Shown here: one piece after another, positions 20,390 through 36,041 of the stretch
How positions within the stretch are numbered: position 1 is the first letter of the stretch
How the letters are laid out: every line of letters starts with the position of its first letter
Assembly: GCA_003211555.1 (NCBI GenBank)
Contig: QCSH01000010.1
Location: forward strand, 1 to 36,041
DNA length: 36,041 nucleotides
Direction of reading: 5' to 3'
Source: Pelagibacteraceae bacterium AG-470-G21
GTDB lineage: Bacteria; Pseudomonadota; Alphaproteobacteria; Pelagibacterales; Pelagibacteraceae
Notes under the pieces: generated by a model
Seen by the model: only the letters and a program-made list of their open reading frames with translations
What the model was told of the DNA's origin: nothing
Databases searched by the model: none
Made by a program: the position numbers and the translations under genes

Positions 20390-20860
20390 ATGTCAACTTT
20401 TGTATACATGACGAGATGTGATGGTTGTGGTCATTGCGTAGATATATGTCCATCAGATATCATGCACATAGACGAAACTATTAGAAGAGCAAAAAATATA
20501 GAACCAAATTTTTGTTGGGAGTGCTACTCATGTGTTAAAGCTTGTCCTAATCATGCAATTGATGTAAGGGGCTATGCCGACTTTGCTCCAATGGGTCATA
20601 GTGTTAGAGTTAGAAGAGAAGAAGAAAAAGGAACTATTTCTTGGAGAATAAAATTTAGAAATGGAACAGAGAAAAATTTTGTGTCACCAATAACAACAAA
20701 ACCTTGGGGAAAATTTATTCCAAAATTAGCGGAAGCTGACACTCCTAATCAAGGCGAAATTAATTCACAAATTTTATATAACGAGCCCCATGGTTTAAAT
20801 ACAGAAAAAGAATTACCTACGTTAGATAAAAATTCATTTAAGCAAGGCGTTTACTATTAA
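20390..20860 (+). CDS. aprB: Adenylylsulfate reductase, beta subunit
   Basis: This 156-residue iron-sulfur subunit binds two [4Fe-4S] clusters, with C10, C13, C16, C20 and C42, C45, C48, C52 in the ferredoxin-like pattern. The C-terminal tail (about 100 residues) wraps the alpha subunit in known structures; here it includes SWRIKFRNGTEKNF and TKPWGKFIP. With AprA it interconverts sulfite plus AMP with adenosine 5'-phosphosulfate; in an aerobic marine bacterium the oxidative direction is expected. The stop TAA shares its last base with the aprA ATG, so the subunits are translationally coupled. Confidence 0.95.
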   Translation: MSTFVYMTRCDGCGHCVDICPSDIMHIDETIRRAKNIEPNFCWECYSCVKACPNHAIDVRGYADFAPMGHSVRVRREEEKGTISWRIKFRNGTEKNFVSPITTKPWGKFIPKLAEADTPNQGEINSQILYNEPHGLNTEKELPTLDKNSFKQGVYY

Positions 20861-22719
20861 TGGCTAAGCATAAGACAATTATTGAGGAATGTGATGTATT
20901 AGTTGTTGGTGGTGGAATGGCTGGAACAGGTGCCACATTTGAAGCAAGGCATTGGGGCAGAGACCTAAAAATAATCTGTGTTGAAAAAGCAAATATAGAT
21001 AGAAGTGGTGCTGTTGCACAAGGACTTTACGCTATTAACTGTTATATGGGAATGCAGTGGGGCGAGAACATGCCAGAGGATCATGTAAGGTACGCTAGAA
21101 ATGATTTAATGGGATTAGTTAGAGAAGATTTAGGTTATGATATGGCTCGTCACGTAGACTCAACTGTTCATATGTTTGACGAATGGGGTCTTCCAATGAT
21201 GAAAAATAAAGAAACTGGAAGATATCAAAGAGAAGGTAAATGGCAGATAATGATCCACGGTGAAAGTTACAAACCAATTGTAGCCGAAGCTGCAAAAAAA
21301 TCTGCTGATAAAATTTATAACAGAATAATGATAACACATCTTTTAAAAGATGAGAAAAACCCAAATCGAATTGCTGGTGCTGTAGGATTTAATGTTAGAA
21401 CTGGAAATTTTCATGTATTCAAATCAAGAACAGTAGTTGTTTCTGCTGGTGGAGCTTCACATATCTTTAAACCAAGAGCAGTAGGTGAGGGTATGGGAAG
21501 AACTTGGTACGCACCATGGAGCAATGGTTCTGCTTATGCTTTACCTATTCAAGCAGGAGCCAAAATGACTCAAATGGAAAATAGAATTGTGCTTTGTAGA
21601 TTTAAAGATGGGTATGGTCCAGTTGGAGCATACTTCTTACATTTAAAAACCTACACTCAAAATGCTAATGGCGAAAATTATGAGAAGAAGTGGTATGATG
21701 CTACGAAAAAACTTGTTGGTGAATATATAGATCATCATCCAACTCCAACATGTTTAAGAAACCATGCTTTTATTCAAGAAACAGCTGCAGGCGGTGGACC
21801 AATCCACATGGTTACAAAAGAAGCATTCCAAGATCCGCATTTAGAAACAATTGGATGGGAAAACTTCTTAGGAATGACTGTTGGACAGGCAGTTGTTTGG
21901 GCTTCTCAAAATATTGATCCAAAATATACAAATCCTGAATTAACAACTTCTGAGCCATATGTAATGGGATCTCATGCTACATGCTCTGGAGCTTGGGTAA
22001 GTGGACCAGAGGATATAGCTCCTGATGAATATTTCTGGGGTTACAACAGAATGATGACTATTGATGGATTATTTGGAGCAGGAGATGCGGTAGGCGGAAG
22101 TGCACATAAATTTTCATCTGGCTCATTTACAGAAGGCAGATTAGCCTCCAAAGCAGCGGTTAAATATATTCAAGATAAAAAAGCTGATGATATTGAGATT
22201 TCTGATGAACAATTAGAGAAATTAAAAGAGGAAATATTCAAGCCGATTGAGAATTATACAGTCGGGAGAAACGAGATTACAGGCGGAACTGTTTCTCCAA
22301 GCTACATTTTGCCTATACAAGGCTTACAAAGACTGCAAAAAATCATGGACGAATATTGCGGTGGATTGACTAATAATTATATGACTAATGATAATCTACT
22401 TAAAAAAGGCTTAGAACAATTACAATTACTTCAAGAAGACTTAGATCATGTTGGAGCTGAAGATTATCACCAATTGATGAGGGCATGGGAGCTTAAGCAT
22501 AGAGCTGTAACTTCAGAATGTGTTGCTCATCATACATTATTTAGAGAAGAAACGCGTTGGCCAGGCTATTATTACAGAGGTGATCATATGAAACTTGATG
22601 ATGAAAACTGGCACTGTTTAACTGTTTCTAGAAGAGATCCTGAAACCGGAAAATTTGAAATGGAGAAAAAGCCTGTTTATCATATAGTTGATGATAAAGA
22701 GAAGAAGCAAGCTTCCTAA
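20860..22719 (+). CDS. aprA: Adenylylsulfate reductase, alpha subunit
   Basis: This 619-residue flavoprotein has the FAD-binding DVLVVGGGMAGTGATFEA at 12-29, IDRSGAVAQGLYAINCYMG near 47-65, and the late FAD site DGLFGAGDAVGGSAHKFSSG near 405-425. Full length and intact motifs indicate a working enzyme. It oxidises sulfite with AMP to APS; ATP sulfurylase (sat), needed to turn APS into sulfate and ATP, is not in this window. Neighbouring suyAB and xsc both make sulfite, giving it a source of substrate. Nine bases separate it from the next gene. Confidence 0.97.
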   Translation: MAKHKTIIEECDVLVVGGGMAGTGATFEARHWGRDLKIICVEKANIDRSGAVAQGLYAINCYMGMQWGENMPEDHVRYARNDLMGLVREDLGYDMARHVDSTVHMFDEWGLPMMKNKETGRYQREGKWQIMIHGESYKPIVAEAAKKSADKIYNRIMITHLLKDEKNPNRIAGAVGFNVRTGNFHVFKSRTVVVSAGGASHIFKPRAVGEGMGRTWYAPWSNGSAYALPIQAGAKMTQMENRIVLCRFKDGYGPVGAYFLHLKTYTQNANGENYEKKWYDATKKLVGEYIDHHPTPTCLRNHAFIQETAAGGGPIHMVTKEAFQDPHLETIGWENFLGMTVGQAVVWASQNIDPKYTNPELTTSEPYVMGSHATCSGAWVSGPEDIAPDEYFWGYNRMMTIDGLFGAGDAVGGSAHKFSSGSFTEGRLASKAAVKYIQDKKADDIEISDEQLEKLKEEIFKPIENYTVGRNEITGGTVSPSYILPIQGLQRLQKIMDEYCGGLTNNYMTNDNLLKKGLEQLQLLQEDLDHVGAEDYHQLMRAWELKHRAVTSECVAHHTLFREETRWPGYYYRGDHMKLDDENWHCLTVSRRDPETGKFEMEKKPVYHIVDDKEKKQAS

Positions 22720-23328: not shown

Positions 23329-24414
23329 ATGGAATATTTTCTTCCTATTGCACAAGTCGAAATTAATATACTTTACATTTTTGGATTAAGTCTAGTAGTT
23401 GGAATATTATCCGGACTATTTGGAGTTGGCGGTGGATTTTTAATGACACCGTTTTTAATATTTTTAGGAATTCCTCCTGCATATGCCGTTCCAAATGAAG
23501 CAAGTAATATTTTAGGAACTTCAGTATCAGGATCCACAACTCATTATTTAAAAGGTACTCTTGATTATAAAATGGGTTTAATGATTGTTGTTGGCGGGAC
23601 TATTGGAACATTATTAGGTATTTTAACTTTTACTTACTTCCAAAATATTGGAAAAATAAATATCGTTATCTCTTTGGCATATATGTATATATTAGCTATT
23701 CTTGGAACTTTAATGCTGATTCAAGGTGTTTCAGAAATTGATAAAGCAAGAAAGAAAATTGTAGTAAGAAAAAAATTACATACTCATTATTGGATACATG
23801 GTTTGCCATTCAGAATGCGTTTCAAAAAATCTAAACTTTATGAAAGTGCTTTTACACCTATTATAATTGGTTTAATTGTTGGATTTATTGCTGCAATAAT
23901 GGGTGTTGGTGGAGCATTTATTCTTGTTCCAGCTATGATTTATATAATTGGTATGCCAACAAAACTTATTCCAGGAACTTCATTATTTGTCACAATATTT
24001 GTTAGTGCGATTGTAACTGTTTTACATGCTTTTAACTATGGAACCATAGATTTAATTTTAGTTTTTGTTCTTATATTAGGTTCAATTATTGGTGTTCAGT
24101 TTGGACAAAAAATTGGAGAAAAAGTTGACAGTTCTGAATTTAAAACAATTTTAGCAATACTTCTTTTGCTTGTTGGAATTGCTATTGCTTATGATACTTT
24201 TATAAAAGATGATATTGTTGTTGAAACTGTTGTTAATGGTACTTCAAGTCTAGGAAATATTGCACAATTTATTTTAGATTATTCTAAAGATCTTCCAGTT
24301 TTCTATGGACTTACCTCAGTAGTTCTAGCAGTGGTATTGGGGATTGGTGCTGCTGTTTTAAGAAATTTTATTTCCAAATGGAATACAGCACGCGAAGCTA
24401 AACTAAAAGCTTAA
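23329..24414 (+). CDS. TSUP (TauE/SafE) family sulfite/sulfonate exporter, long form
   Basis: This 361-residue protein has about eight or nine membrane helices and two internal repeats, each with the TSUP signature: [21 protein letters not shown] near 32-52 and [21 protein letters not shown] near 190-210. A basic loop of about 40 residues joins the repeats. Members export sulfite or sulfoacetate, or take up small sulfur anions. Its position between the APS reductase operon and suyAB/xsc points to export of sulfite or sulfate produced by sulfonate breakdown. It ends tail-to-tail with suyB with a four-base overlap. Confidence 0.88.
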
Positions 24415-25577
24415 GCACTTCTGTATAATTTAGTCATCACAAATTCTTTATGACCTAATGCTTCAGCACATGTTAATCTACCATTTGCCACTCTAATAGT
24501 TGCCTTTATTAACTCGTCTCCAGCCTCATCCAAATTCATTTCTCTTGATAAAATTTTTGAGACATCTACATCAATATGTTCACTCATACTTTTTGCTGTA
24601 AGAGGGTTGGCTGTTAGTTTCACAACTGGCTCAATTGGATTTCCAATTATATTTCCTTGTCCAGTTGGAAATAAGTGTAAATTAAATCCACCAGCTGCTT
24701 GTAGAGTAACGCACTCAGCAGCTGCTGAAGATGTATCCATAAAATATAGACCAGGTCCTTTGGTTGGCTCTTCTGCGGGTTCAAGAACATCAATAAATTG
24801 ACATCCTCCAATCTTTTGAAAGTTTCCAAACGCTTTTTCTTCAATAGTTGTAAGTCCTCCTGCAATATTCCCAGCAGTTGGTTGGCTTTCAGAAAGATCA
24901 TCTGTAGCTTCTTTTAAAATGAAGTCATTATATGAATTCCACGTTTTTCTGAATTTTTCTTGAGCCTCGGGTGTTTTTCCTCTTTTTTCACATACAGTTT
25001 CTGCTCCTGTTAACTCTGATGTTTCACCAAAACATAAATGAACACCTAAAGGTTCCAATTTGTCCATTAAATTTCCAACAGTTGGATTTGATGCTAAACC
25101 AGATGTAGTATCAGACTCTCCACATTTTACTGATATCCATAGGTCACTAATTGGACGCTCCTCTCTTTGTTTTTCTGATGCCCAAATTGAAAATTCTTGA
25201 GCTTTTTTAGAGACTTTTGCTATTGTATCTATATCCCCAACTCCTTCTATGCTAAATCCCTCAACAGGTTTGCCCGTGGTAGCTATTGCATCAACAATTC
25301 TCTTTGTCCATTTTGGTTCAATTCCTATAACAATGACAGCTGCAACATTTGGATTTCTTCCTGTACCAATCATAGTTCTAAAATGAAGTTCTAAGTCTGC
25401 ACCAAATTGTAATCTTCCATAAGAATGCGGAAGTGCAATTGTTCCTTTTATATTATTAGCTACTGCTTCAGCACATGCATTTGAAATATCATCGACTGGT
25501 AGAATTATTACATGATTTCTAGTTCCAGTTCTTCCGTCTTCTCTTTTATAACCTAAAAATGTTTTTGGAATTTCCAT
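24411..25577 (-). CDS. suyB: (2R)-sulfolactate sulfo-lyase, beta subunit
   Basis: This 388-residue large subunit of the UxaA/SuyAB-type lyase family begins [20 protein letters not shown] with the conserved [10 protein letters not shown]. It continues with [24 protein letters not shown] (a probable metal or cluster cysteine) and [12 protein letters not shown]. With SuyA it splits sulfolactate into pyruvate and sulfite. The ATG at 25577 is chosen because it follows the suyA stop by one base; a longer start would overlap suyA. The whole sequence reads closer to SuyB than to altronate or galactarate dehydratase, and the xsc and apr neighbours agree. A different hydroxy-acid substrate remains possible. 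Confidence 0.85.
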
Positions 25578-25578
25578 A

Positions 25579-25866
25579 TTACCATTTCTTTGTTTTAACA
25601 TTATGAACATGAACATGTTCACCTTTTTTTATTGATTTAACTACTTTGCCAATATCATGACCATATTTTAAAATTGTATCTCCTTCATCAAGATCGGTCA
25701 TAGCAATTTTATGACCTAAAGGTATTTCATCCATTGATTGAATTTTTACAGATTTATCATTTTCCATAATCCAACAATCACAGTCTTGCTTTGGTGTAAT
25801 TTTTTCAATAACTACAACGCCTACATTGTCTTTTTCATCGTGGATTATAATATCTGTGCCAGCCAT
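25579..25866 (-). CDS. suyA: (2R)-sulfolactate sulfo-lyase, alpha subunit (SAF domain)
   Basis: This small 95-residue subunit has the SAF-domain pattern [22 protein letters not shown] and ends [10 protein letters not shown], as in the N-terminal domain of UxaA-type dehydratases and in SuyA. The ATG at 25866 is preferred. A TTG at 25899 would add eleven residues, but the ATG form matches the usual SuyA length. It is directly upstream of suyB with one base between, so the two subunits are translated together. The promoter region is shared with the divergent xsc. Confidence 0.85.
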
Positions 25867-25897
25867 TGTGACGATTTCTTTGTTTGAAATTTCAGAC

Positions 25898-25942
25898 AAT
25901 ATATATATGAATTGGACACTTTAACAATTAAAAAAATATAAT
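25898..25942. promoter_or_regulatory. Back-to-back promoter candidates between suyAB and xsc
   Basis: Toward xsc: TTGGAC (25912-25917), 19 bases, then TATAAT (25937-25942). Toward suyA: TTGTTA (complement of 25922-25927) followed 16-18 bases later by TATATA/TATATT (around 25905-25898). The two -35 regions lie within the same 16 bp, so one bound regulator could control both sulfonate genes. The motifs are by eye in AT-rich DNA. Confidence 0.4.
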
Positions 25943-25957
25943 TAATAGGGATTTGAA

Positions 25958-27742
25958 ATGGCTAAAATGACAACTGAAGAAGCTTTTGTAAAAGTTTTAC
26001 AAATGCATGGTATTGAACATTCATTTGGTATCATTGGTTCTGCATTCATGCCAATTTCAGATCTTTTTCCTGAAGCAGGAATTACTTTTTGGGATGTTGC
26101 CCACGAAACTAATGGTGGATTAATTGCAGATGGTTACACTAGAGCTACTGGCAAAATGTCAATGGTCATTGCTCAAAACGGACCGGGCATAACAGGATTG
26201 GTTACTCCAATTAAAACTGCATACTGGAATCATACACCATTATTATTAGTTACTCCTCAAGCTGCTAATAAAACTATGGGTCAAGGTGGTTTTCAAGAGG
26301 TTGAACAAATGAATTTATTTAAAGACATGGTGTGTTATCAAGAAGAAGTTAGAGACCCGTCAAGAATGGCAGAAGTTTTGAACAGAGTAATAGAAAAAGC
26401 ATTTAGAGGGTCAGCGCCTGCACAAATAAATGTACCGAGAGATTTTTGGACACAAGTTATAGATATAGAATTACCTCCAATTGTAAGATTTGAACGACAA
26501 GGTGGAGGAAAAGATGCAGTAGATAGTGCTGCTAAACTTTTATCAGAAGCTAAATTTCCAGTTATTTTATCTGGTGCTGGAGTAGTTATTGGAGATGCAA
26601 TTGACGACTGTAAAAAACTTGCAGAAAAATTGGATGCCCCTGTCTGCAATGGATATCAACATAATGATAGCTTCCCAGGAAGTCATCCTTTAGCTGTTGG
26701 TCCACTTGGATATAACGGATCTAAAGCTGCAATGGAATTAATATCAAAAGCAGATGTAGTTTTAGCGTTAGGTACAAGACTAAATCCTTTTTCAACACTA
26801 CCAGGTTATGGAATTGATTATTGGCCAAAAGATGCAACTATTATCCAAGTGGATATGAATGCAGATAGAATTGGTTTAACAAAAAAAGTTACTGTTGGAA
26901 TTTGTGGTGATGCTAAAATGGTAGCACAACAAATTTTACAAAAACTCTCTCCAAATGCTGGAGATAATGGAAGAGAAGATAGAAAAAACCTTATCCATCA
27001 AACAAAATCAGCATGGCTGCAAACTCTTACTAGTTTAGATCATGAGGATGATGATCCAGGAACAGTATGGAATAAAGAGGCAAGAGAAAGAGATAAAGAT
27101 AGAATGTCTCCAAGACAAGCATGGAGAGCTATTCAAGCTGGTTTACCTGAAGACGTTATAATTTCTAGTGACATTGGTAACAATTGTGCAATTGGAAATG
27201 CTTACCCAACATTTGAAAAACCAAGAAAATATTTAGCACCTGGTTTATTTGGACCATGCGGTTACGGTTTTCCTTCAATACTTGGAGCGAAAATAGGTTG
27301 TCCTGATACTCCTGTAATAGGTTTTGCTGGAGATGGTGCTTTTGGAATTAGCATGAATGAAATGAGTTCCTGTGCAAGAGAAGAATGGCCTTCAATAACA
27401 ATGGTTATATTCAGAAATTATCAATGGGGAGCTGAAAAAAGAAATTCAATTTTATGGTTTGATGATAATTTTGTAGGAACTGAATTAGACCCAGAATTAA
27501 GTTATGCTAAAGTTGCAAATGCATGTGGATTAAAAGGTGTTATCGCAAATACAATGGAAGAAACAACTAAAGCAATTAAACAATCATGTTTAGATCAGAA
27601 AAAAGGAATTACAACATTTATTGAAGTTGTTCTAAACCAAGAATTGGGTGAGCCATTTAGAAGAGATGCTATGAAAAAACCAGTAAAAGTAGCTGGTATC
27701 AGCAAAAATGATATGAGACCTCAAAAGTCTCTTGTTAGTTGA
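25958..27742 (+). CDS. xsc: Sulfoacetaldehyde acetyltransferase
   Basis: This 594-residue thiamin-diphosphate enzyme cleaves sulfoacetaldehyde with phosphate to sulfite and acetyl phosphate. The N-terminus MTTEEAFVKVLQMHGIEHSF, then TPQAANKTMGQGGFQEVEQM, is the typical Xsc wording. The activating glutamate is E50 in VAHETNGG, and the ThDP-binding GDG sits in GFAGDGAFGISMNEM near residue 466. The full length is present. Substrate could come from taurine, isethionate or other C2 sulfonates; the matching upstream enzymes (tpa, tauXY, iseJ) are not in this window. AGGGA precedes the ATG. The thiamin dependence links it loosely to thiV. Confidence 0.96.
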   Translation: MAKMTTEEAFVKVLQMHGIEHSFGIIGSAFMPISDLFPEAGITFWDVAHETNGGLIADGYTRATGKMSMVIAQNGPGITGLVTPIKTAYWNHTPLLLVTPQAANKTMGQGGFQEVEQMNLFKDMVCYQEEVRDPSRMAEVLNRVIEKAFRGSAPAQINVPRDFWTQVIDIELPPIVRFERQGGGKDAVDSAAKLLSEAKFPVILSGAGVVIGDAIDDCKKLAEKLDAPVCNGYQHNDSFPGSHPLAVGPLGYNGSKAAMELISKADVVLALGTRLNPFSTLPGYGIDYWPKDATIIQVDMNADRIGLTKKVTVGICGDAKMVAQQILQKLSPNAGDNGREDRKNLIHQTKSAWLQTLTSLDHEDDDPGTVWNKEARERDKDRMSPRQAWRAIQAGLPEDVIISSDIGNNCAIGNAYPTFEKPRKYLAPGLFGPCGYGFPSILGAKIGCPDTPVIGFAGDGAFGISMNEMSSCAREEWPSITMVIFRNYQWGAEKRNSILWFDDNFVGTELDPELSYAKVANACGLKGVIANTMEETTKAIKQSCLDQKKGITTFIEVVLNQELGEPFRRDAMKKPVKVAGISKNDMRPQKSLVS

Positions 27743-27788: not shown

Positions 27789-29366
27789 ATGAAAGTTAAA
27801 AATATTCTTTTTATAATGGCCGACCAACTCAGGTGGGATTATCTTTCATGTTATGGCCATCCCCATTTAAAAACTCCTCACTTAGATAGCTTAGCAAAAA
27901 AAGGTGTAATGTTTGAGTCCGCTTATGTTCAGGCACCTGTATGTGGCCCATCGAGAGCATCTTATTACACAGGAAGAACAGTTTTTAGTCATGGTTCAAC
28001 CTGGAACCAAGTACCACTTCCAATTGGTGAATTAACTATTGGCGATTATTTGAGACAGTCAGGAATAAAAACTTGTGTTGTTGGCAAAACACATATGAGA
28101 CCTGATATTAATAGCATGAATAGATTAGGAATTTCAAAAACAACAGAGATTGGTTCTGTTGTAATGGAGCCTGGGTTCGATCCTTATGAGAGAGATGATG
28201 GTCTTCATCCAAACAACATTATGAAAAGATCTGAAAAAGAACTATCCTATAACGAATGGTTAAATAAATTAGGATATAAAGGAGATAATCCATGGGATAG
28301 CTGGGCTAATTCAGTTGAAGGAGAAAATGGAGAAGTTCTAAGTGGATGGAGATTAAGAAATTCAAATAAACCATCTAGGTTACCAGAAAAACACTCAGAA
28401 ACTGCATTTATGACTAATAGAGCTATCGATTTTATAAAAGAAACTAAAGAACAATGGTTTTTACATCTATCTTATATAAAACCACATTGGCCTTATATTG
28501 CACCCGCGCCATATCATAATATGTATTCACAAAATCAATTTTATCCTGTTCAAAGATCAGACTCAGAAAAAAATATTAATCATCCTGTCTATAAAGCTTT
28601 TATGGAGAACAGTATTTCAAAAACATTCTCACAAGAAAACGTAAGAGAGACAGTTCTTGCTGGTTATATGGGTTTAATTAAACAAATTGACGACAATCTA
28701 GGAAGACTTTTCAAATTTTTGGAAGAAAATGGAAATATGCAAGATACTTTGATAGTTTTTACATCAGATCATGGAGATTATCATGGTGATCATTGGCTTG
28801 GTGAAAAAGAATTATTTCATGAACAAATAGTTAAAGTTCCGATGATTATTTATGATCCAAGTGAAGAAGCAAATAAAACCAGAGGAAAGAAAGAGAAAAG
28901 ATTTATAGAGGCAATTGATTTACTTCCAACATTTTTAGATGCCGTTGAAAGTAAAGCAAGCAAACACAGACTTGAAGGTTCTTCTTTAATTCCAATATTA
29001 AGGGGTGAAAAAATAAGTAAATGGAGAGAAAGTGTATTCAGTGAGATAGACTATTCATTTAATGAAGCCAGAAAAATTTTAAACATAGGTGCGTCAGATG
29101 CAAGAGCTTATATGATTAGAAATAATAAATGGAAATATATTTATTATAAAGGTTTTCCACCTCAACTATTTGATTTAGAAAAAGATAAAGATGAATTTAA
29201 TGATCTTGGTCAATCTAAAGATCATCAAAATATATTAAATCAAATGAAAGATATTTTACTAGAAAGATTAACAGATCGAAAAAATAGAACCACCGCCGAT
29301 GATGAATTTGTTTTAAAAGAGAGAGATTATTCTGAAGATGGTGGTATAATGATTGGTGTTTGGTAA
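27789..29366 (+). CDS. Type I sulfatase-like hydrolase (alkaline phosphatase superfamily)
   Basis: This 525-residue enzyme has the formylglycine signature CGPSRASYYTGR with C52 as the modified residue, MADQLRWD with metal ligand D12, and a second metal site SDHGDYHGDHWLGEKELFHE near 330-349. DQ in place of DD, and CGPSRAS, are shared with choline sulfatases and phosphonate monoester hydrolases, so sulfate-ester and phosphonate or phosphate-diester substrates are both possible. There is no signal peptide, so it is probably cytoplasmic and acts on an imported compound. It starts 46 bp after xsc and ends flush against dctM on the other strand. A formylglycine-generating enzyme or anaerobic maturase is not in the window. 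Confidence 0.87.
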   Translation: MKVKNILFIMADQLRWDYLSCYGHPHLKTPHLDSLAKKGVMFESAYVQAPVCGPSRASYYTGRTVFSHGSTWNQVPLPIGELTIGDYLRQSGIKTCVVGKTHMRPDINSMNRLGISKTTEIGSVVMEPGFDPYERDDGLHPNNIMKRSEKELSYNEWLNKLGYKGDNPWDSWANSVEGENGEVLSGWRLRNSNKPSRLPEKHSETAFMTNRAIDFIKETKEQWFLHLSYIKPHWPYIAPAPYHNMYSQNQFYPVQRSDSEKNINHPVYKAFMENSISKTFSQENVRETVLAGYMGLIKQIDDNLGRLFKFLEENGNMQDTLIVFTSDHGDYHGDHWLGEKELFHEQIVKVPMIIYDPSEEANKTRGKKEKRFIEAIDLLPTFLDAVESKASKHRLEGSSLIPILRGEKISKWRESVFSEIDYSFNEARKILNIGASDARAYMIRNNKWKYIYYKGFPPQLFDLEKDKDEFNDLGQSKDHQNILNQMKDILLERLTDRKNRTTADDEFVLKERDYSEDGGIMIGVW

Positions 29367-30677
29367 CTATGGATACATCAAACTTGGTAAATATAAGCAT
29401 AAAGCCGGAAAAGCAATTAATAATCCCAATCTAACAACATCAGTAATTAAAAAAGGTAGTGTTCCAAACCATATTGTTTGCAATGGAGTTTTGTTCATAA
29501 CACCCTTTATCACGAACAAATTCATTCCAACAGGTGGGGATATCAAACCAAATTCAACAACTATTACAGCAAAAATTCCAAACCAAACTGGATCAATACC
29601 TGCATCAGCAATAACAGGATAAAAAACAGGTATTGTTAAAAATAGCATCGCAAGAGAATCCATAACGGTTCCTAAAACTAAATAAATTGCGCATATAACT
29701 AAAATAATACCCAATGGTGTTAGTTGAAGATCGTTTATGAAATCTACAACCGTGAAAGGTAATTGGGTAACAGTTATTAAAAAATTAAACACACTGGCTC
29801 CAATAACAATTAAATAAAGAGCCCCAACTGTTTTAATAGTATCCCAAATTGAATTTTTTAGTAATTCAATAGTTAATTCACCTCTCAAGAAAATAAATAA
29901 AATTACTAAAATAACACCAACAGCAGCACTTTCTGTTGCTGTAAAAAATCCAAGATAAAGACCTCCCATAATAATTGCAAAAATTAAAAAAATCGGAAAA
30001 ACTTTTGTTAATGCAGAAATCCTGTCTTTTGTGGTCATTTTTTCTCCATGACCACCTTGATCTGGATAAATTAATAAATAAACTCTAATTGCTATCATAT
30101 ACAAAACAACAGCAATAAGCCCCGGTATAAGAGCAGCAAAAAATAGCTGTTGTATAGATTGTTCTGTTAAATATGCATAAATAATTAATATTACACTTGG
30201 AGGAATGATTATTCCTAATGTTCCACCTGATGCAACAGAACCGCTTATCAAAGCATCGCTATATCCATGTCTTTTCATTTCTGGTCCAGCCATTTGAGAC
30301 ATGGTAGCTGCAGTAGCAATTGAAGATCCACAAATCATTCCAAAACCAGCGCATGCTCCAACAGTAGACATTGCTAATCCACCTTTATAATGACCAACTA
30401 CAGCATAAGCTGCATCATATAAATTTCTAGAAAGGTTTGCCCTATTAGCAAGATTACCCATTAAAACAAAAAGAGGCAAAACAGACAATGTATATTTTGA
30501 TACAGCTTCAAACGGAGCAGTTCCTAAAACAAAAAGAGCTTGTTCAAAACCTGTAATTAAGGCAAATCCAGTAAATCCAACTATAAGCATTGAAATTCCT
30601 ATTGGTACATTTAGAGCCATGAGAATTAACACTACTAAGAAAGATAATGAGCCACTTATAATTGGATCAAAACTCAC
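29367..30677 (-). CDS. dctM: TRAP transporter, large permease subunit DctM
   Basis: This 436-residue protein with about twelve to thirteen membrane helices belongs to the DctM family. It has GMICGSSIATAATMSQMAGPEM, LGIIIPPSVILIIYAYLTEQS and, near the end, FGLISPPVGMNLFVIKG, all usual in TRAP large permeases. It uses the sodium gradient with DctQ and the periplasmic DctP to import organic acids. It overlaps dctQ by four bases. The binding protein is encoded on the opposite strand past the FAH-family gene, an unusual split. Confidence 0.94.
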   Translation of the reverse strand: MSFDPIISGSLSFLVVLILMALNVPIGISMLIVGFTGFALITGFEQALFVLGTAPFEAVSKYTLSVLPLFVLMGNLANRANLSRNLYDAAYAVVGHYKGGLAMSTVGACAGFGMICGSSIATAATMSQMAGPEMKRHGYSDALISGSVASGGTLGIIIPPSVILIIYAYLTEQSIQQLFFAALIPGLIAVVLYMIAIRVYLLIYPDQGGHGEKMTTKDRISALTKVFPIFLIFAIIMGGLYLGFFTATESAAVGVILVILFIFLRGELTIELLKNSIWDTIKTVGALYLIVIGASVFNFLITVTQLPFTVVDFINDLQLTPLGIILVICAIYLVLGTVMDSLAMLFLTIPVFYPVIADAGIDPVWFGIFAVIVVEFGLISPPVGMNLFVIKGVMNKTPLQTIWFGTLPFLITDVVRLGLLIAFPALCLYLPSLMYP

Positions 30678-31150
30678 AAATTTTTGCCTTTCAAAGTATT
30701 AATTAACCAAAAAACAATTGCGATAACACTCAGCCACATGCCAATAGATGCAGCATAGTAAAATGGATAGAAATATATTTCTAAATCAATGGTAACTCTT
30801 TCATTTTTAAAAAAAGCCATAGCCTCTCTTGTAGTAGCGTAAGCCATCATAGACATAACAATTATCATTAGAATAAATCTAAAAATATTTATAAAAACCT
30901 GAAATGTATTGTTTGGAATATTTTTAATAAAATCTGCTGAAACATTTGCATTTAAAAAAAATGCTCTCGGCATTGCTAAAAATGCAACAAGTGCCATACC
31001 GAATTCAACCAATTCTATTGTTCCAGTAACAGGAGAATTAAGAAATCTTCTTCCAAATACATCACAAAAAGTTAACACAGCTAAAGATAATAATATTAAT
31101 CCTGAAATTATAGCTGAGAGATCAAATATGTTATTAATTTTAAATTTCAT
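30674..31150 (-). CDS. dctQ: TRAP transporter, small permease subunit DctQ
   Basis: This 158-residue protein with four membrane helices shows typical DctQ wording: ALVAFLAMPRAFFLNANVSA in the middle and the preceding FGRRFLNSPVTGTIELVEFG. It is the first gene of the dctQM pair and is divergent, with a 53-bp gap, from the FAH-family gene. The gap probably holds promoters in both directions, but I see no clear motif. Confidence 0.92.
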   Translation of the reverse strand: MKFKINNIFDLSAIISGLILLSLAVLTFCDVFGRRFLNSPVTGTIELVEFGMALVAFLAMPRAFFLNANVSADFIKNIPNNTFQVFINIFRFILMIIVMSMMAYATTREAMAFFKNERVTIDLEIYFYPFYYAASIGMWLSVIAIVFWLINTLKGKNL

Positions 31151-31203
31151 TCGATAAACTTTCTTCTAATTTATCAGAGTTTAACGTATAAAGTTATAAA
31201 AAT

Positions 31204-32061
31204 ATGAAATTTATCTCTTTCAATCATAACAATACTGAAAAATTTGGAATAATCGAAAATAATGTAATTACCGACTTAACTGGAAAAATTTCAGATGCTA
31301 AAAGTTTAAAAGAATTAATAAAGATAAAAAAGATTAATGATGCAAAAGAATATGCGAAAAATAATCCTGGAAATATAAGTCCAAATGAAATTCATTACTC
31401 TCCAGTAATACCTAATCCGGGTAAAATTATTTGTGTTGGTTTAAATTATAGTGAACACGTAAAAGAGACTAATCGTACAATAGAGGAAAACCCAGTAATA
31501 TTTCATAGGTTTCCAGAAAGCCAGACTTCACATTTGCAACCAATACAAAGACCAACTGTTTCTGAAAGTTTAGATTTTGAAGGCGAAATGGCTGTCATTA
31601 TGGATGAGGGTGGCAAACATATAAAAACAGAGGATGCGTTAAAGCATATTGTTGGTTTTTCTTGCTACAACGAAAGCACTGTTAGAGATTGGCAAAGACA
31701 TACTAGACAATTTGGTATGGGAAAAAATTTTGAAAAGACTGGAAGTTTTGGCCCTCATATGGTTTTAGCAGAAGATATTCCAGATTACAAAAGTTTAACA
31801 ATAGAGACTAGGCTTAATGGTGACGTAATGCAAAATGCTAAACTAAGTCAATTAATTTTTGATATACCGATTTTAATTTCTTATGTATCCAAAGCTATGG
31901 CATGGAGAGCAGGTGATGTTCTAGTAACAGGAACTCCTGGTGGAGTAGGCTTTAAAAGAAATCCGCCTGTTTTTATGAAACCTGGAGATAATGTTGAAGT
32001 CGAAATCACTGATATTGGTGTTTTATCTAACACTATTAAGGATGAAATAATCTCAAATTAG
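31204..32061 (+). CDS. Fumarylacetoacetate hydrolase (FAH) family protein
   Basis: This 285-residue FAH-family enzyme has KIICVGLNYSEHVKETN near 76-92, metal-binding glutamates in SLDFEGEMAVIM near 123-134, the GKNFEKTGSFGP block near 173-184, and TGTPGGVGFKR near 241-251. Members act on 2-oxo acid or beta-diketone products of ring cleavage: hydrolysis (fumarylpyruvate, fumarylacetoacetate), hydration or decarboxylation. Together with the extradiol dioxygenase downstream it probably handles a meta-cleavage product. The exact reaction cannot be told. Its 3' neighbour is dctP, 36 bp on. Confidence 0.9.
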   Translation: MKFISFNHNNTEKFGIIENNVITDLTGKISDAKSLKELIKIKKINDAKEYAKNNPGNISPNEIHYSPVIPNPGKIICVGLNYSEHVKETNRTIEENPVIFHRFPESQTSHLQPIQRPTVSESLDFEGEMAVIMDEGGKHIKTEDALKHIVGFSCYNESTVRDWQRHTRQFGMGKNFEKTGSFGPHMVLAEDIPDYKSLTIETRLNGDVMQNAKLSQLIFDIPILISYVSKAMAWRAGDVLVTGTPGGVGFKRNPPVFMKPGDNVEVEITDIGVLSNTIKDEIISN

Positions 32062-32097
32062 AGTTAAAATTTTAATATAAATTTTAGAGGGAGAAAT

Positions 32098-33111
32098 ATG
32101 AAAAACAAAATAATTGGATTTGTTTTTGGTGTTTTAAGTTTAGGTATAGTAAATGCTGCTTCAGCAACTGAACTTAAACTTGCTACATTTGAACCACCAA
32201 AAGCATTTATCGCAAGCAAAATTCTTGCTGCATGGGCTGACAAAGTAAACGAATGTTCAGCTGGTGCGGTTAATGTTAAAATGTTTGCAGGAGGTGTGTT
32301 AGGAAAACCACCACAACAATATGATATTGTCACAAAAGGTGTAGCAGACATTTCATGGACGGTACTTGGATATATAGGAGGACAGTTTCCACTTAGCTCT
32401 GTAATCGAACTACCTTTTTTAACAAAAACTTCAAAAGCAGGATCTAGAGCTCTAAATACTCTTTATGAAGAAGGTTTTTTAGATAAAGAGATGGCTGGGA
32501 TTAAACTAATTGGTTTACATTCTAATCCTGGATACCAAATACATATGAAGACAGACAAAGTTGTAAGACCTGCTGACTTCAAAGGTAAGAAAATGAGAGT
32601 ACCAAGTAAAATTGCTGGAACAATTTTAAAAACTCTTGGAGCAACTGGTGTAAGAGTACCAGCTCCTGGAACATCAGAAGCACTTAACAAAGGTGTTATT
32701 GATGGAACACCATTTCCTTATACTGCAATTGGATCTTTTAGATTATTTGATGTAACTAAATATCACACAGAAGTTAACATAACTAATGCAACATTTGGTT
32801 TGATAATGAATCAGGGTAAATACGATGGATTATCAGCTAAAGGCAAAGGATGTGTAGACAAATTTAGTGGTCAGTGGTTCGGAGATTGGGCATCTGGATT
32901 GATAGATAGTCAAAATGCTAAAATGAGAGTTGAGGTAGAGAATAAACCTGGACATGAAATCATTGTAGCTTCTGATGATGTTATAGCTGAATATAAGAAA
33001 ATATTAGCACCCATCGAAGCAAATTGGCTTGCTGAAATGAAAGGCAAAGGCCTTGATGGTGACGCAGTCCTAAAAAGAGCAAGACAAATAATATCCAAAA
33101 TAGACGGTTAA
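32098..33111 (+). CDS. dctP: TRAP transporter substrate-binding protein DctP
   Basis: This 337-residue periplasmic binding protein has a signal peptide ending ASA before TELKLATFEPP (cleavage near residue 23). DctP features follow: FAGGVLGKPPQQYDIVTKGVADISW near 62-86, and DFKGKKMRVPS, in which the arginine expected to pair with the ligand carboxylate is present (R165 region). The ligand is therefore probably a carboxylate. GAGGGAG lies a few bases before the ATG. A 10-bp hairpin follows the gene, fitting the usual need for more binding protein than permease. Confidence 0.93.
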   Translation: MKNKIIGFVFGVLSLGIVNAASATELKLATFEPPKAFIASKILAAWADKVNECSAGAVNVKMFAGGVLGKPPQQYDIVTKGVADISWTVLGYIGGQFPLSSVIELPFLTKTSKAGSRALNTLYEEGFLDKEMAGIKLIGLHSNPGYQIHMKTDKVVRPADFKGKKMRVPSKIAGTILKTLGATGVRVPAPGTSEALNKGVIDGTPFPYTAIGSFRLFDVTKYHTEVNITNATFGLIMNQGKYDGLSAKGKGCVDKFSGQWFGDWASGLIDSQNAKMRVEVENKPGHEIIVASDDVIAEYKKILAPIEANWLAEMKGKGLDGDAVLKRARQIISKIDG

Positions 33112-33123
33112 TTTAAAACATTT

Positions 33124-33155
33124 TTTGAGCCTGTATTTAATAATGCAGGCTCAAA
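33124..33155 (+). terminator. Hairpin after dctP
   Basis: TTTGAGCCTG (33124-33133) pairs with CAGGCTCAAA (33146-33155) around a 12-base loop. There is no T-run on the 3' side, and the dioxygenase gene begins 22 bases later. It may be a partial terminator or an mRNA-stabilising hairpin that raises dctP expression over the genes downstream. Confidence 0.6.
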
Positions 33156-33177
33156 CTTAATCTTGTATAATAATTTA

Positions 33178-34152
33178 ATGGCAATACATGCTTTAAGTTA
33201 CATCGGTGTTAATTCTGATCGAATTGAGGATTGGTCAGACTATTCAAGAAAATGCTTAGGAATGCAACAAGTAGATAGAGCAAAAGACTCTCTGTCTTTC
33301 AGAATGGATGATCAAAAGCAAAGATTAGTTGTAACAGGAGATACTGGAGATAGCTTAGCATTCATGGGTTGGGAAGTTGAGAAAAAAGAAGATTTAAAAA
33401 TGTATGCTGATCGTCTTGAGAATAATAATATCCCAGTAACTTATGGACAATCCTCATTTGCAGATAAAAGATTTGTTAAAGATTTAATTTATTTTAAAGA
33501 CCCTCAAGGCAATCAGATAGAATTGATATTTGACCCAATGAAAGATAACGATCCTTTCAAACCATCTAGACCAATTTCTGGATTTAAAACTGGTGCATTA
33601 GGAATGGGCCATGTTGTTTTACATGCCAAAGATTTTAATAAACTTGTTCCTTTCTATAAGGACCTTTTAGATTTTAAAATTAGTGATTATAGCAATACAC
33701 CAATTTCATTATGTTTCTTTCACGTCAATGGTAGACATCATAGTTTTGCATTATTTGGATCGGGTCAACAAGGATTTCACCATTTTATGGTCGAGTACAA
33801 TTCTTTAGATGATGTTGGACAAGGATATGATTTAATGAATTTAAAAGATGATAAAATTGCTTATACAATGGGAAGGCATACTAATGATTACATGACCTCA
33901 TTTTATTCAATAACACCATCAGGATTTTTTGTAGAAAATGGGTGGGGCGGAAGAATAATTGAACCTAAAACATGGGAAGCCATTGAAACTTTTGAAGGCC
34001 CAAGCTTTTGGGGACATGAAAGATTGTATTTACCAGAAGAGGAAAGAAAAAAATTTAGAGATAAAAGAATGCAAACTGCTGCAGAAGGTAAACAAGCTCC
34101 TTTATTAATTGATTGCCCTTGGCTATATTCAAATATAGCTAAAAAAAAATAA
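33178..34152 (+). CDS. Extradiol (VOC-fold) ring-cleavage dioxygenase
   Basis: This 324-residue two-domain type I extradiol dioxygenase is built like 2,3-dihydroxybiphenyl dioxygenase (BphC). The three iron ligands are visible in the second domain: H145 in MGHVVLHAKD, H202 in FHHFMVEY and E253 in FVENGWG. The second-shell residues are also present: the histidines of NGRHHSFALF, and the histidine of GRHTNDYMTSFY. The enzyme should therefore open a catechol-like ring next to the two hydroxyls. The ATG at 33178 is used; an upstream TTG at 33163 adds only five residues. The substrate is a catechol derivative, not identified. Twelve bases separate it from the monooxygenase. Confidence 0.92.
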   Translation: MAIHALSYIGVNSDRIEDWSDYSRKCLGMQQVDRAKDSLSFRMDDQKQRLVVTGDTGDSLAFMGWEVEKKEDLKMYADRLENNNIPVTYGQSSFADKRFVKDLIYFKDPQGNQIELIFDPMKDNDPFKPSRPISGFKTGALGMGHVVLHAKDFNKLVPFYKDLLDFKISDYSNTPISLCFFHVNGRHHSFALFGSGQQGFHHFMVEYNSLDDVGQGYDLMNLKDDKIAYTMGRHTNDYMTSFYSITPSGFFVENGWGGRIIEPKTWEAIETFEGPSFWGHERLYLPEEERKKFRDKRMQTAAEGKQAPLLIDCPWLYSNIAKKK

Positions 34153-34163
34153 ATTTAAAATTA

Positions 34164-35609
34164 ATGAAAGAATATGATGCAGTAATTGTTGGATTAGGTC
34201 CAACAGGTGGAACTTTAGCAAACTTATTAGCTATCCAAGGTTATTCAATTTTAATTTTAGAAAAAGAAAATAGTTTTTACCCTCTTCCAAGAGCAGTCCA
34301 TTTTGATGACGAAGTTATGAGAGTATTTCAAACAATTGGAATTACAGATAAATTTCTAAAATATACTCTAATTAATAAAGGAACTAAGTTTGTAAATAAA
34401 AAGGGTGATGTAATTTTAGATTGGCCAAGACCAAAAGAAGTCACTGAAAATGGATGGTATCCAAGTTATAGATTTCATCAACCTGATTTAGAAAGACAAT
34501 TACGAAATAGACTTAAATCTTTTAAAACAGTTTATATCCAACAAAATACTAAACTCTTAAAAGCTACAAATACTAAAAATAATGTTCAAATAATCTATCA
34601 AGACATAAAACAAAATAAAATTTTAAATATTAAAGCTAAATATTTAATTGGTTGCGATGGTGCTAATTCTACAGTCCGAAATCAAATAAAAACAAATATG
34701 AGTAATTTAGGATTTACTCAAAAATGGGCAGTAGTTGATCTAATTTTGAAAAAAAAGAAAAATAATCTTCCAGATCGAACAATTCAATTTTCAAATAAAG
34801 TAAGACCAGCAACTTATTGCAGAAATGTAGGCAGAAGAAGAAGGTGGGAGTTTGTAATCAATAACAACGAAAGAGAAGAAACTATTATGTCTGAAAAGTA
34901 CATATGGAACTTCCTTAAACCATGGCTTAGCAAAAAAGATGCTATTCTTGAAAGAAAAACTATATACACATTCAAATCCGCAATTAGCAAAAGATGGAGA
35001 AAAGGTAGAATCTTTATTGCTGGTGATGCTGCGCACTTGATGCCACCTTTTATGGGTCAAGGAATGTGTGCTGGAATAAGAGATGTATCAAACTTGTCAT
35101 GGAAATTATCACTTTGTTTAAAGAATAATCATTCAGACAAATTATTAAACACATACCAGAGTGAGAGATACTCAAATGTAAAAGAGTATGTGAGTACAAC
35201 TATGAGAATGGGTTCATATATAAATGCAGTTAGCTCAACAAAAATTACAAAAAATATTTCTTCGAATAAAGAAGGAGTAAAATCTATGAAATCTATCAAA
35301 CCAAAATTAGGAAAAGGTTTAGGAAAAGTTAATGACAAACTGAGAGGTAAAATATTTCCTCAGTTTAAATTAAAAAATGGAAAAAATTTAGATGAAAAAT
35401 TTTCTTTTAAACCTATTGTAATAATTTCACCAAAATTAAAGAAAAAAATCTCCAAAAAAATTAATCATGTTCTATCAAATAATGTATATGGTTTAAGTAA
35501 ATATCTTAACAAAATAAAATCTGAAGGACTTATAGTTAGACCAGATAGATTTATAATTGGAGCAATAAAATCTGAAAAAATTTCAAAAATAAAAAACTAT
35601 TCAATTTAG
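34164..35609 (+). CDS. FAD-dependent aromatic monooxygenase, MhpA-like
   Basis: This 481-residue flavoprotein of the p-hydroxybenzoate hydroxylase class has the FAD-binding VIVGLGPTGGTLANLLA (8-24), LPRAVHFDDEVMRVFQTIG near 43-61, the DG motif LIGCDGANSTVRNQI near 162-176, and IFIAGDAAHLMPPFMGQGM near 283-301. The middle resembles 3-(3-hydroxyphenyl)propionate hydroxylase. It should add a hydroxyl ortho to an existing phenol and so supply the catechol for the adjacent dioxygenase. The C-terminal domain (after about 370) is lysine-rich and divergent. The 3' end overlaps the DUF849 gene by nine bases, tail to tail. Confidence 0.88.
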   Translation: MKEYDAVIVGLGPTGGTLANLLAIQGYSILILEKENSFYPLPRAVHFDDEVMRVFQTIGITDKFLKYTLINKGTKFVNKKGDVILDWPRPKEVTENGWYPSYRFHQPDLERQLRNRLKSFKTVYIQQNTKLLKATNTKNNVQIIYQDIKQNKILNIKAKYLIGCDGANSTVRNQIKTNMSNLGFTQKWAVVDLILKKKKNNLPDRTIQFSNKVRPATYCRNVGRRRRWEFVINNNEREETIMSEKYIWNFLKPWLSKKDAILERKTIYTFKSAISKRWRKGRIFIAGDAAHLMPPFMGQGMCAGIRDVSNLSWKLSLCLKNNHSDKLLNTYQSERYSNVKEYVSTTMRMGSYINAVSSTKITKNISSNKEGVKSMKSIKPKLGKGLGKVNDKLRGKIFPQFKLKNGKNLDEKFSFKPIVIISPKLKKKISKKINHVLSNNVYGLSKYLNKIKSEGLIVRPDRFIIGAIKSEKISKIKNYSI

Positions 35610-36041
35610 ATTTAATTCTTCTTTGATAATTTTTATTTTTGTTTCATTATCTTTAGCAACCTCACCTGAGGGAAGATATAATGAATTTTCAAATCCAATT
35701 CTTATTTTTCCACCAAGTTTTATTGCTTCTTTTAAGCAAACAAATTCTTCTTTTTCAAAAGCACATATAGCCCAATCTGCTTTAAATTTATTTTTTTCTA
35801 ATTTTTCTAAATAAAAAGGTATTTTATTTGGATCACTTATTTTCCCAGTATAGTGACCTATTACAAATAAGCACCATGAGTTGTTTTTTTCAATTTCAGA
35901 TTTATTTAATACATTTGAAAGTAAATCAATATCTTCTGGCTCATGGCAAATATGCTGAACATTAATTTTTTCATCTGATAAATATTTATAAAGTTTTATA
36001 TCTTCATCAGTTGGATTTCTGCTTGGAATTAATTCTCTAAT
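35601..36041 (-). CDS. Beta-keto acid cleavage enzyme (DUF849/BKACE), C-terminal part
   Basis: The last 146 residues of a minus-strand gene run off the window edge, starting inside IRELIPSRNPTDEDIKLY. They include VQHICHEPEDIDLLSN and a C-terminal LGGKIRIGFENSLYSSPSGE, which matches the barrel end and strand-8 motif (GG.vRVGfEn) of DUF849 enzymes. BKACE proteins condense a beta-keto acid with acetyl-CoA to give acetoacetate and a new CoA ester, using zinc. The zinc-binding HxH and the start lie outside the window. Its nearness to the aromatic genes suggests a lower-pathway role, but it is on the opposite strand and may be separate. Confidence 0.82.
   Translation of the reverse strand: MRELIPSRNPTDEDIKLYKYLSDEKINVQHICHEPEDIDLLSNVLNKSEIEKNNSWCLFVIGHYTGKISDPNKIPFYLEKLEKNKFKADWAICAFEKEEFVCLKEAIKLGGKIRIGFENSLYLPSGEVAKDNETKIKIIKEELNLN

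Follow-up and report, generated by a model that had tools for sequence, protein, structure and literature searches.

A putative mobile gene cassette for aromatic ring cleavage in SAR11 bacteria

Introduction

The window analysed here is the whole of contig C10 (QCSH01000010.1, 36,041 nucleotides) from the SAR11 organism Pelagibacteraceae bacterium AG-470-G21, whose genome of 1.11 Mb in 34 contigs has an estimated completeness of ~84%. Searches with Pfam and NCBIfam profiles placed eight genes in the ~8.3 kb at its end (27789-36041), namely an arylsulfatase, dctM, dctQ, an FAH-family hydrolase, dctP, an extradiol dioxygenase, a flavin adenine dinucleotide (FAD) monooxygenase and a BKACE-family gene, with dctPQM encoding a tripartite ATP-independent periplasmic (TRAP) importer. 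We propose, with moderate confidence, that some SAR11 bacteria carry these genes as a cassette for aromatic ring cleavage that is horizontally mobile and operates by a trihydroxyarene-type scheme. That the cassette serves aromatic ring cleavage is very probable; for the trihydroxyarene variant of that cleavage the arguments are evenly balanced.

SAR11 bacteria, the most abundant bacterial group in the ocean, are usually pictured as having minimal genomes and taking small labile compounds as food. If our reading is true, aromatic and perhaps sulfated aromatic dissolved organic matter would join the SAR11 diet, and the eight named genes make the idea testable. The component enzyme families, and a core of monooxygenase, dioxygenase and FAH protein elsewhere, are known; of the eight-gene SAR11 cassette no earlier report was found in the open-licence literature.

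Results and Discussion

Conservation and mobility of the cassette in SAR11

The dioxygenase was found in 13 of the 121 genomes searched (the organism's own and 120 relatives). The order and relative orientation of the genes were the same in all 12 of the other dioxygenase-bearing genomes, ten of which have all eight genes while two are cut by contig ends. A wider scan of named genomes yielded 404 stretches encoding a relative, and the counts over 80 loci given below refer to the best 80 of these, whose titles all read Pelagibacteraceae, Pelagibacterales or Alphaproteobacteria bacterium. Most carry AG isolate numbers, which we take to denote single-cell genomes, and the titles of some start with MAG. 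All eight genes stand in the same order and orientation in 69 of the 80 loci. Contig ends account for each gene missing from the remaining 11, where the room left never exceeds 121 bases. A sequence-only reading of this DNA had treated the genes as one functional unit and had named gene order in other Pelagibacterales as a check on it; both the relatives' loci and the larger scan support that claim and show an arrangement that is no chance one.

The surroundings of the block are far less constant. The first frame upstream of the sulfatase belongs to 20 different families across 72 loci and the first frame downstream of the BKACE gene to 18 families across 70 loci. A constant internal order amid such varied flanking families marks the block, as judged from gene order, as one mobile accessory cassette of SAR11. 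In a sample of 399 genomes from the genus, 53 encode the dioxygenase; among the 57 with a completeness of at least 90% the figure is 7. Within the cassette the interval between the sulfatase and dctM is an insertion hot spot, with an extra frame in 40 of the 80 loci and a spacing of up to 1.9 kb in some relatives; the inserted frames fall into six families and include a 107-amino-acid hydrophobic protein without a Pfam match, a PhyH oxygenase and a ROK kinase.

Dioxygenase and monooxygenase

The dioxygenase aligns to 1HAN (200 bits) and BphC is its closest relative among solved structures. Its iron ligands H145, H202 and E253, placed using what we take to be the iron-binding residues of BphC, are invariant in 13 sequences. 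From these residues it is assigned as a type I (VOC) extradiol dioxygenase of the BphC type with its iron site intact, and ring cleavage is predicted. In the monooxygenase the motifs GxGPxG, CDGA and GDAAHLMPP are invariant in 12 sequences, and we take GxGxxG, DG and GD to be the names of the flavin motifs of class-A FAD monooxygenases. Together with the score of the monooxygenase against NF004829 (Table 1), the invariant iron ligands support the earlier suggestion of ring hydroxylation followed by extradiol opening.

The best solved matches of the monooxygenase include polyketide and rifampin oxygenases, which would suit a role in detoxifying or tailoring aromatic or quinone metabolites and not in acquiring carbon. 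We consider this highly improbable, given that the TRAP importer has relatives titled for aromatic acids, that the ring-opening enzyme stands next to an FAH protein, and that none of the eight genes is for export or biosynthesis.

The core in other alphaproteobacteria

Outside SAR11 we drew on 385 sampled genomes from the class, 398 from the phylum and a plasmid collection, and counted neighbours within ~10 kb of each dioxygenase ortholog. At the 12 loci with a dioxygenase of at least 54% identity, an FAD monooxygenase was present in all 12, an FAH protein in 11 and a TRAP large permease in six, with a BKACE-family gene in one and a distant sulfatase (25%) in two. In contrast, none of the seven non-SAR11 loci with a dioxygenase below 49% identity had a monooxygenase, FAH, TRAP permease, BKACE or sulfatase gene. 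The monooxygenases of the non-SAR11 loci L130 and L131 are only 26% similar, and the L130 enzyme scores best with other subfamilies. The core is conserved in other alphaproteobacteria; marine members of that class belonged to the gene-order check that the sequence-only reading had named.

Nine plasmid records matched at E<=1e-50; the surroundings of six were examined and one more served only in the tree described below. The other two were left aside, one equalling another record in identity and score and one belonging to the same species as another. The six alphaproteobacterial plasmid modules (Martelella, Rhizobium, Pannonibacter and Roseinatronobacter) resemble the SAR11 cassette in their orthologous dioxygenase (54-61%), in having FAH and monooxygenase genes throughout (6/6) and in a TRAP DctM in five. 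Unlike the SAR11 cassette, they have regulator genes nearby and lack the SpAS1-type sulfatase, only one of them has a BKACE-family gene, and two have a monooxygenase from a different subfamily.

A tree was built from 29 dioxygenases, among them named bphC, nahC and hsaC. A branch with support of 96/97 separates the 18 that have a monooxygenase neighbour from the rest. The SAR11 sequences form one clade (100/100), and their join to alphaproteobacterium G333 is weak (84/79). The tree contains six SAR11 rows only and has long outgroup branches; L043 was left out for its internal stop.

FAH and monooxygenase genes also pair in a broader set of plasmids. Two lists of plasmid records, one showing 60 of 198 and the other 40 of 706, have 13 records in common, and in 10 of these the FAH and monooxygenase genes are at most 2 kb apart. 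The remaining three are from Phaeobacter, with the listed FAH and monooxygenase 22 kb apart; in the one that was fetched, another MhpA-annotated gene adjoins the FAH gene. On Phaeobacter gallaeciensis pP128_c (53067-65921) a VOC protein, an FAH protein (52% to that of the window) and an MhpA-annotated monooxygenase follow in series, and two TAXI-type TRAP binding proteins are encoded close by, a set that perhaps has the same logic with another importer. The core of monooxygenase, dioxygenase and FAH, often with TRAP genes, is already present in other alphaproteobacteria and each of its enzyme families is known; we know of no characterised member.

An importer related to aromatic-acid binding proteins

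Eight solved sequences are nearest to DctP at E<=1e-40, and six of them are titled for aromatic acids, some being forms of one protein, while two titles are cut off before the ligand. The set comprises TarP_Sse (coumarate), two GOS marine proteins 'specific for aromatic acids', TarP_Csal in two forms, TarP_Rhp (4-hydroxyphenylacetate) and the two without a readable ligand. According to an excerpt of PMC3610893, Rhodopseudomonas TarP bound coumarate, caffeate, ferulate and cinnamate with nM Kd and did not bind 4-hydroxybenzoate. DctP belongs to the same sequence family as the TarPQM aromatic-acid TRAP transporters, although with 20-26% identity in fold-search alignments. The structure model behind these alignments is too poor for structural claims (pLDDT 52.6), and the fold search was used for ligand titles and identity only. 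The sequence of DctP places it as a TarP-type aromatic-acid binding protein, and aromatic import, part of the sequence-only reading, is supported by the titles of its relatives.

Proposed pathway

In our scheme DctPQM would import an aromatic carboxylate, some of it at least as the O-sulfate, and the sulfatase would release the phenol within the cytosol. Next, the monooxygenase would hydroxylate a dihydroxyarene with a resorcinol- or hydroquinone-type ring to a trihydroxyarene, which the dioxygenase would open to an acylpyruvate, a 2,4-dioxo acid. Hydrolysis of this acid by the FAH protein would give pyruvate and a beta-keto-type acid, a resorcinol with side chain R giving R-CO-CH2-COOH, and the BKACE-like protein or housekeeping enzymes may pass the beta-keto acid on, for example via acetoacetyl-coenzyme A (CoA) synthetase.

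The choice of a trihydroxyarene follows from the company the dioxygenase keeps. The products of classical meta-cleavage need a C-C hydrolase of the alpha/beta fold, and among the named genes that we fetched one bphC adjoins bphD and one hsaC adjoins hsaD. For an FAH-type hydrolase the substrate has to be a 2,4-dioxo acid, and extradiol cleavage gives such an acid when the ring has a third hydroxyl. Because an FAH protein, not an alpha/beta hydrolase, accompanies the dioxygenase, we infer that the monooxygenase yields a trihydroxyarene. Monooxygenase, type I extradiol dioxygenase and FAH form a unit both in SAR11 and at the non-SAR11 orthologs. The sequence-only reading had described the core of a meta-cleavage pathway: ring hydroxylation and extradiol opening hold up, whereas the classical form is less well supported, the FAH protein standing in place of the alpha/beta C-C hydrolase. 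Furthermore, a gene annotated as quinone reductase lies beside the module in three of the six plasmid loci (Pfam gave only the zinc-dehydrogenase family for the one scanned), which would fit trihydroxyarenes that form quinones.

Alternatives at the FAH step

Eight residues of the FAH protein (H85, E88, E126, E128, E157, R161, Q164 and K174) are invariant in 12 sequences. Set by eye on the alignment against the residues of FAHD1 listed in an excerpt of PMC7116474, the His-Glu lid dyad, the Arg, Gln and Lys and two of the three metal ligands are retained; E157 stands in place of the remaining ligand, D102. The structure model of this protein (pLDDT 39.6) is too poor for structural claims.

A number of observations weigh against the proposed scheme, and several of them concern this step. 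Besides the Glu for Asp at the third metal ligand, none of the curated FAH models is over its cut-off, the best being a didehydro-deoxyrhamnonate hydrolase (151 bits against 500), and the second best, HpaG, is an isomerase/decarboxylase and not a hydrolase (148 against 276). Since no curated model reaches its cut-off and the best one is a diketo-sugar-acid hydrolase, hydrolysis is favoured for the FAH protein but not proven. No quinone reductase is found among the eight cassette genes. The 12 non-SAR11 ortholog loci are not independent, four coming from one genus and two from near-identical Martelella plasmids. More generally, the scheme rests on sequence, so that its substrate and products are predicted and expression of the cassette is putative.

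The HpaG score also speaks for a classical meta-cleavage pathway. There the monooxygenase would, like MhpA, yield a plain catechol carboxylate, the dioxygenase would open its ring to a 2-hydroxy-6-oxo-dienoate, a housekeeping alpha/beta hydrolase would cleave it, and the FAH protein would be an isomerase, decarboxylase or hydratase. NF004829 does name the monooxygenase MhpA-like, the second solved match of the FAH protein is called a decarboxylase, and the likeness of the dioxygenase to BphC fits as well. However, alpha/beta hydrolase, hydratase, dehydrogenase, tautomerase and aldolase are all absent among the eight genes (no search for them went beyond the cassette), the FAH gene stays with the dioxygenase in all but one of the 12 non-SAR11 orthologs, and the expected shape of the ring-cleavage product, an argument from general chemistry, would favour the trihydroxyarene route. 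We therefore regard the classical pathway as unlikely.

The sulfatase and its maturation

The best solved relatives of the sulfatase are 4UPI (SpAS1) at 637 bits and 4UPL at 622 bits, against 247 bits for the phosphonate monoester hydrolase 2VQR, and C52, K100 and H102 are invariant in 12 sequences. According to an excerpt of PMC5488252, arylsulfatases are told apart from phosphonate monoester hydrolases by a K/H pair. The sulfatase bears this pair and is classed accordingly with the arylsulfatases. It shares with SpAS1 the family, the active-site pair and the CxPxR-type motif. No signal peptide is seen by eye at the N-terminus, so the enzyme is probably cytosolic.

In contrast to this likeness, the SAR11 carriers examined have no recognised FGE or anSME, and this too counts against the scheme. 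FGE profile matches occur in two of the 13 dioxygenase-bearing genomes, both being EgtB, with matches in five further relatives left unclassified. The anSME model TIGR03942 is above its cut-off in none of 17 genomes, 10 of which have weak matches at the level of radical SAM proteins (at most 35 bits against 349). The genomes searched are 60-96% complete, and a gap could hide a maturase in one of them, less easily in all. Likewise, the SpAS1-type sulfatase is missing from the modules outside SAR11, where the 12 loci gave only the two distant matches. Either there is an unrecognised maturase or the enzyme works otherwise, and the maturation of a CxPxR sulfatase where no maturase is recognised becomes an enzyme question in its own right. 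That a sulfate ester is the native substrate, which the sequence-only reading had put forward as a possibility, is about as likely as not.

The FGE-model matches in G000 and G068 were considered as maturases and rejected as EgtB. EgtB, an enzyme of ergothioneine synthesis, is found in SAR11 at L044 (3817-5037) and L045 (3199-4299); the Pfam FGE model matches it, which makes it a trap for maturase searches.

The BKACE-like protein and use of the products

The sequence-only reading had reported a DUF849 fragment. The family is right, the BKACE profile being matched, but the gene is no fragment: it is truncated by the contig end and encodes a full 259-261 amino acids in 11 relatives. The IHxHxR motif is present in the 11 complete rows and GFE in all 12, and the metal residues are kept. 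The predicted R-CO-CH2-COOH belongs to the BKACE substrate class, which would explain the eighth gene. Against this, all 12 rows have Ile or Leu for Glu143 of Kce and Asn for Asp231. Both the Glu and the Asp are kept in the Roseinatronobacter BKACE (L130) and in the BKACE paralog of the organism's own genome. The BKACE step is the weakest of the scheme because of this changed active site, and the role of a BKACE-fold protein whose catalytic residues are altered is a second enzyme question. An excerpt of PMC4922564 states that some DUF849 groups are not BKACEs. Acetoacetate, if formed, could be put to use, since acetoacetyl-CoA synthetase is above cut-off in 12 of the 13 dioxygenase-bearing genomes; counting against the scheme, none of the 13 has a CoA transferase (PF01144). 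Both counts cover carriers only.

The paralog, full-length, lies on contig C13 (17785-18648) and adjoins what looks by eye like a dehydrogenase frame. This arrangement recalls the carnitine-type SAR11 island in an excerpt of PMC12421898, which places a BKACE for betaine and carnitine on that other island.

The doubts over the sulfatase and the BKACE-like gene bear on a further alternative, in which the ring-opening core is real and these two genes at the cassette edges have separate functions, the sulfatase as a general scavenger of sulfate esters. Both are terminal, the sulfatase is set off from dctM by the insertion hot spot, neither is a regular part of the modules outside SAR11, and no maturase was found in the genomes examined. 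On the other hand, the 80 SAR11 loci hold no counterexample, missing edge genes always lying past a contig end despite the 20 and 18 flanking families, and we judge the separation somewhat unlikely. A bolder extension of the mobile ring-cleavage reading is that roughly one species in eight within the SAR11 genus eats sulfated phenolic acids, taken up as aryl sulfates, by a mobile, self-contained route with an unrecognised or dispensable maturase, trihydroxyarene opening and new BKACE-fold chemistry. We hold this extension to be rather unlikely as a whole.

Comparison with known systems

DntG is an FAH-family protein and DntB is MhpA-like. In the lower pathway of 2,4-dinitrotoluene, as described in excerpts of PMC3757077 and PMC10602510, a monooxygenase, an oxygenase acting on 2,4,5-trihydroxytoluene and a bifunctional isomerase/hydrolase lead to pyruvate and propionyl-CoA. 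The DntB-DntD-DntG steps have the same logic as the cassette, a likeness of pathway descriptions and not of DntBDG sequences; the cassette differs in its TRAP importer, sulfatase and BKACE-like gene and in having no nitro chemistry. In the orcinol (5-methylresorcinol) pathway hydroxylation gives a trihydroxybenzene, an extradiol enzyme opens its ring to a trioxo acid, and this is hydrolysed to pyruvate and acetoacetate-level carbon. Here again the logic is the same by description, with no comparison of genes, and TarP-like import, if it is real, would give the cassette a substrate that bears an acid group.

On pBAM2 of Aminobacter sp. MSH1, which serves 2,6-dichlorobenzoate catabolism, a VOC protein adjoins an FAH hydrolase 49% identical to that of the window, and an excerpt of PMC8460812 gives a TRAP system a potential role in uptake. 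This system differs from the cassette in its chlorinated substrate and its Rieske and glutathione enzymes, and no FAD_binding_3-type monooxygenase is annotated in the stretch fetched. The riboflavin/lumichrome pathway, which ends in pyruvate and acetoacetate, was rejected as a model for its different enzymes (PMC12746152, excerpt). The clusters for 4-hydroxypyridine (PMC7356986) and 2-isopropylphenol (PMC12442392) were also rejected, having in the excerpts the FAH gene in common but not the full set.

Layout of the locus and neighbouring genes

The coordinates of the cassette are given in Table 1. The sulfatase-like enzyme with its intact CGPSR motif, the dctQM and dctP genes, the FAH-family hydrolase, the MhpA-like monooxygenase and the extradiol dioxygenase with three iron ligands, all read from the letters alone within ~8 kb, were confirmed by the profile matches and ligand alignment. 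The gap between the two divergent units is likely to be a promoter region. For the dioxygenase the relatives favour the ATG at 33178; the longest frame opens at TTG 33163.

Table 1. Genes and intergenic gap of the putative ring-cleavage cassette, in window coordinates.
Feature	Position	Strand	Length and evidence
Arylsulfatase, SpAS1 type	27789..29366	+	525 aa; PF00884 E=1.4e-54; CGPSR formylglycine motif C52-R56; K100/H102 pair
dctM, TRAP large permease	29367..30677	-	436 aa; PF06808 E=2.9e-93; TIGR00786 304 bits, cut-off 268
dctQ, TRAP small permease	30674..31150	-	158 aa; PF04290 E=6.4e-14
53-base gap, divergence of dctQM and FAH-dctP-dioxygenase-monooxygenase	31151..31203	none	gene coordinates
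FAH-family hydrolase	31204..32061	+	285 aa; PF01557 (FAA_hydrolase) E=4.6e-60; predicted role as acylpyruvate C-C hydrolase
dctP, TRAP solute-binding protein, predicted TarP aromatic-acid type	32098..33111	+	337 aa; PF03480 E=7.7e-40
Type I extradiol dioxygenase	33178..34152	+	324 aa; PF00903 Glyoxalase/VOC 3.1e-21; BphC_D1 (PF22632) 1.7e-10
Class-A FAD monooxygenase, PRK06183.1-3 subfamily	34164..35609	+	481 aa; PF01494 (FAD_binding_3) E=6.8e-63; NF004829 498 bits, cut-off 390
BKACE-family gene, cut by contig end	35601..36041	-	last 146 aa only; PF05853 E=5.3e-18, 65.8 bits, cut-off 24.8

A fumarate-reductase-type flavoprotein, with no substrate assigned, lies at 20860-22719, upstream of a sulfonate cluster that adjoins the cassette (23329-27742). 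This cluster comprises a TauE-like exporter, a galactarate-dehydratase-family protein with a small partner that has no Pfam match, the two being presumably suyAB-like by position, and the sulfoacetaldehyde acetyltransferase xsc. The xsc, suy-like and tauE genes were considered as members of the cassette and rejected, the order of the window recurring in only nine of the 80 loci; in one further locus xsc alone, inverted, adjoins the cassette.

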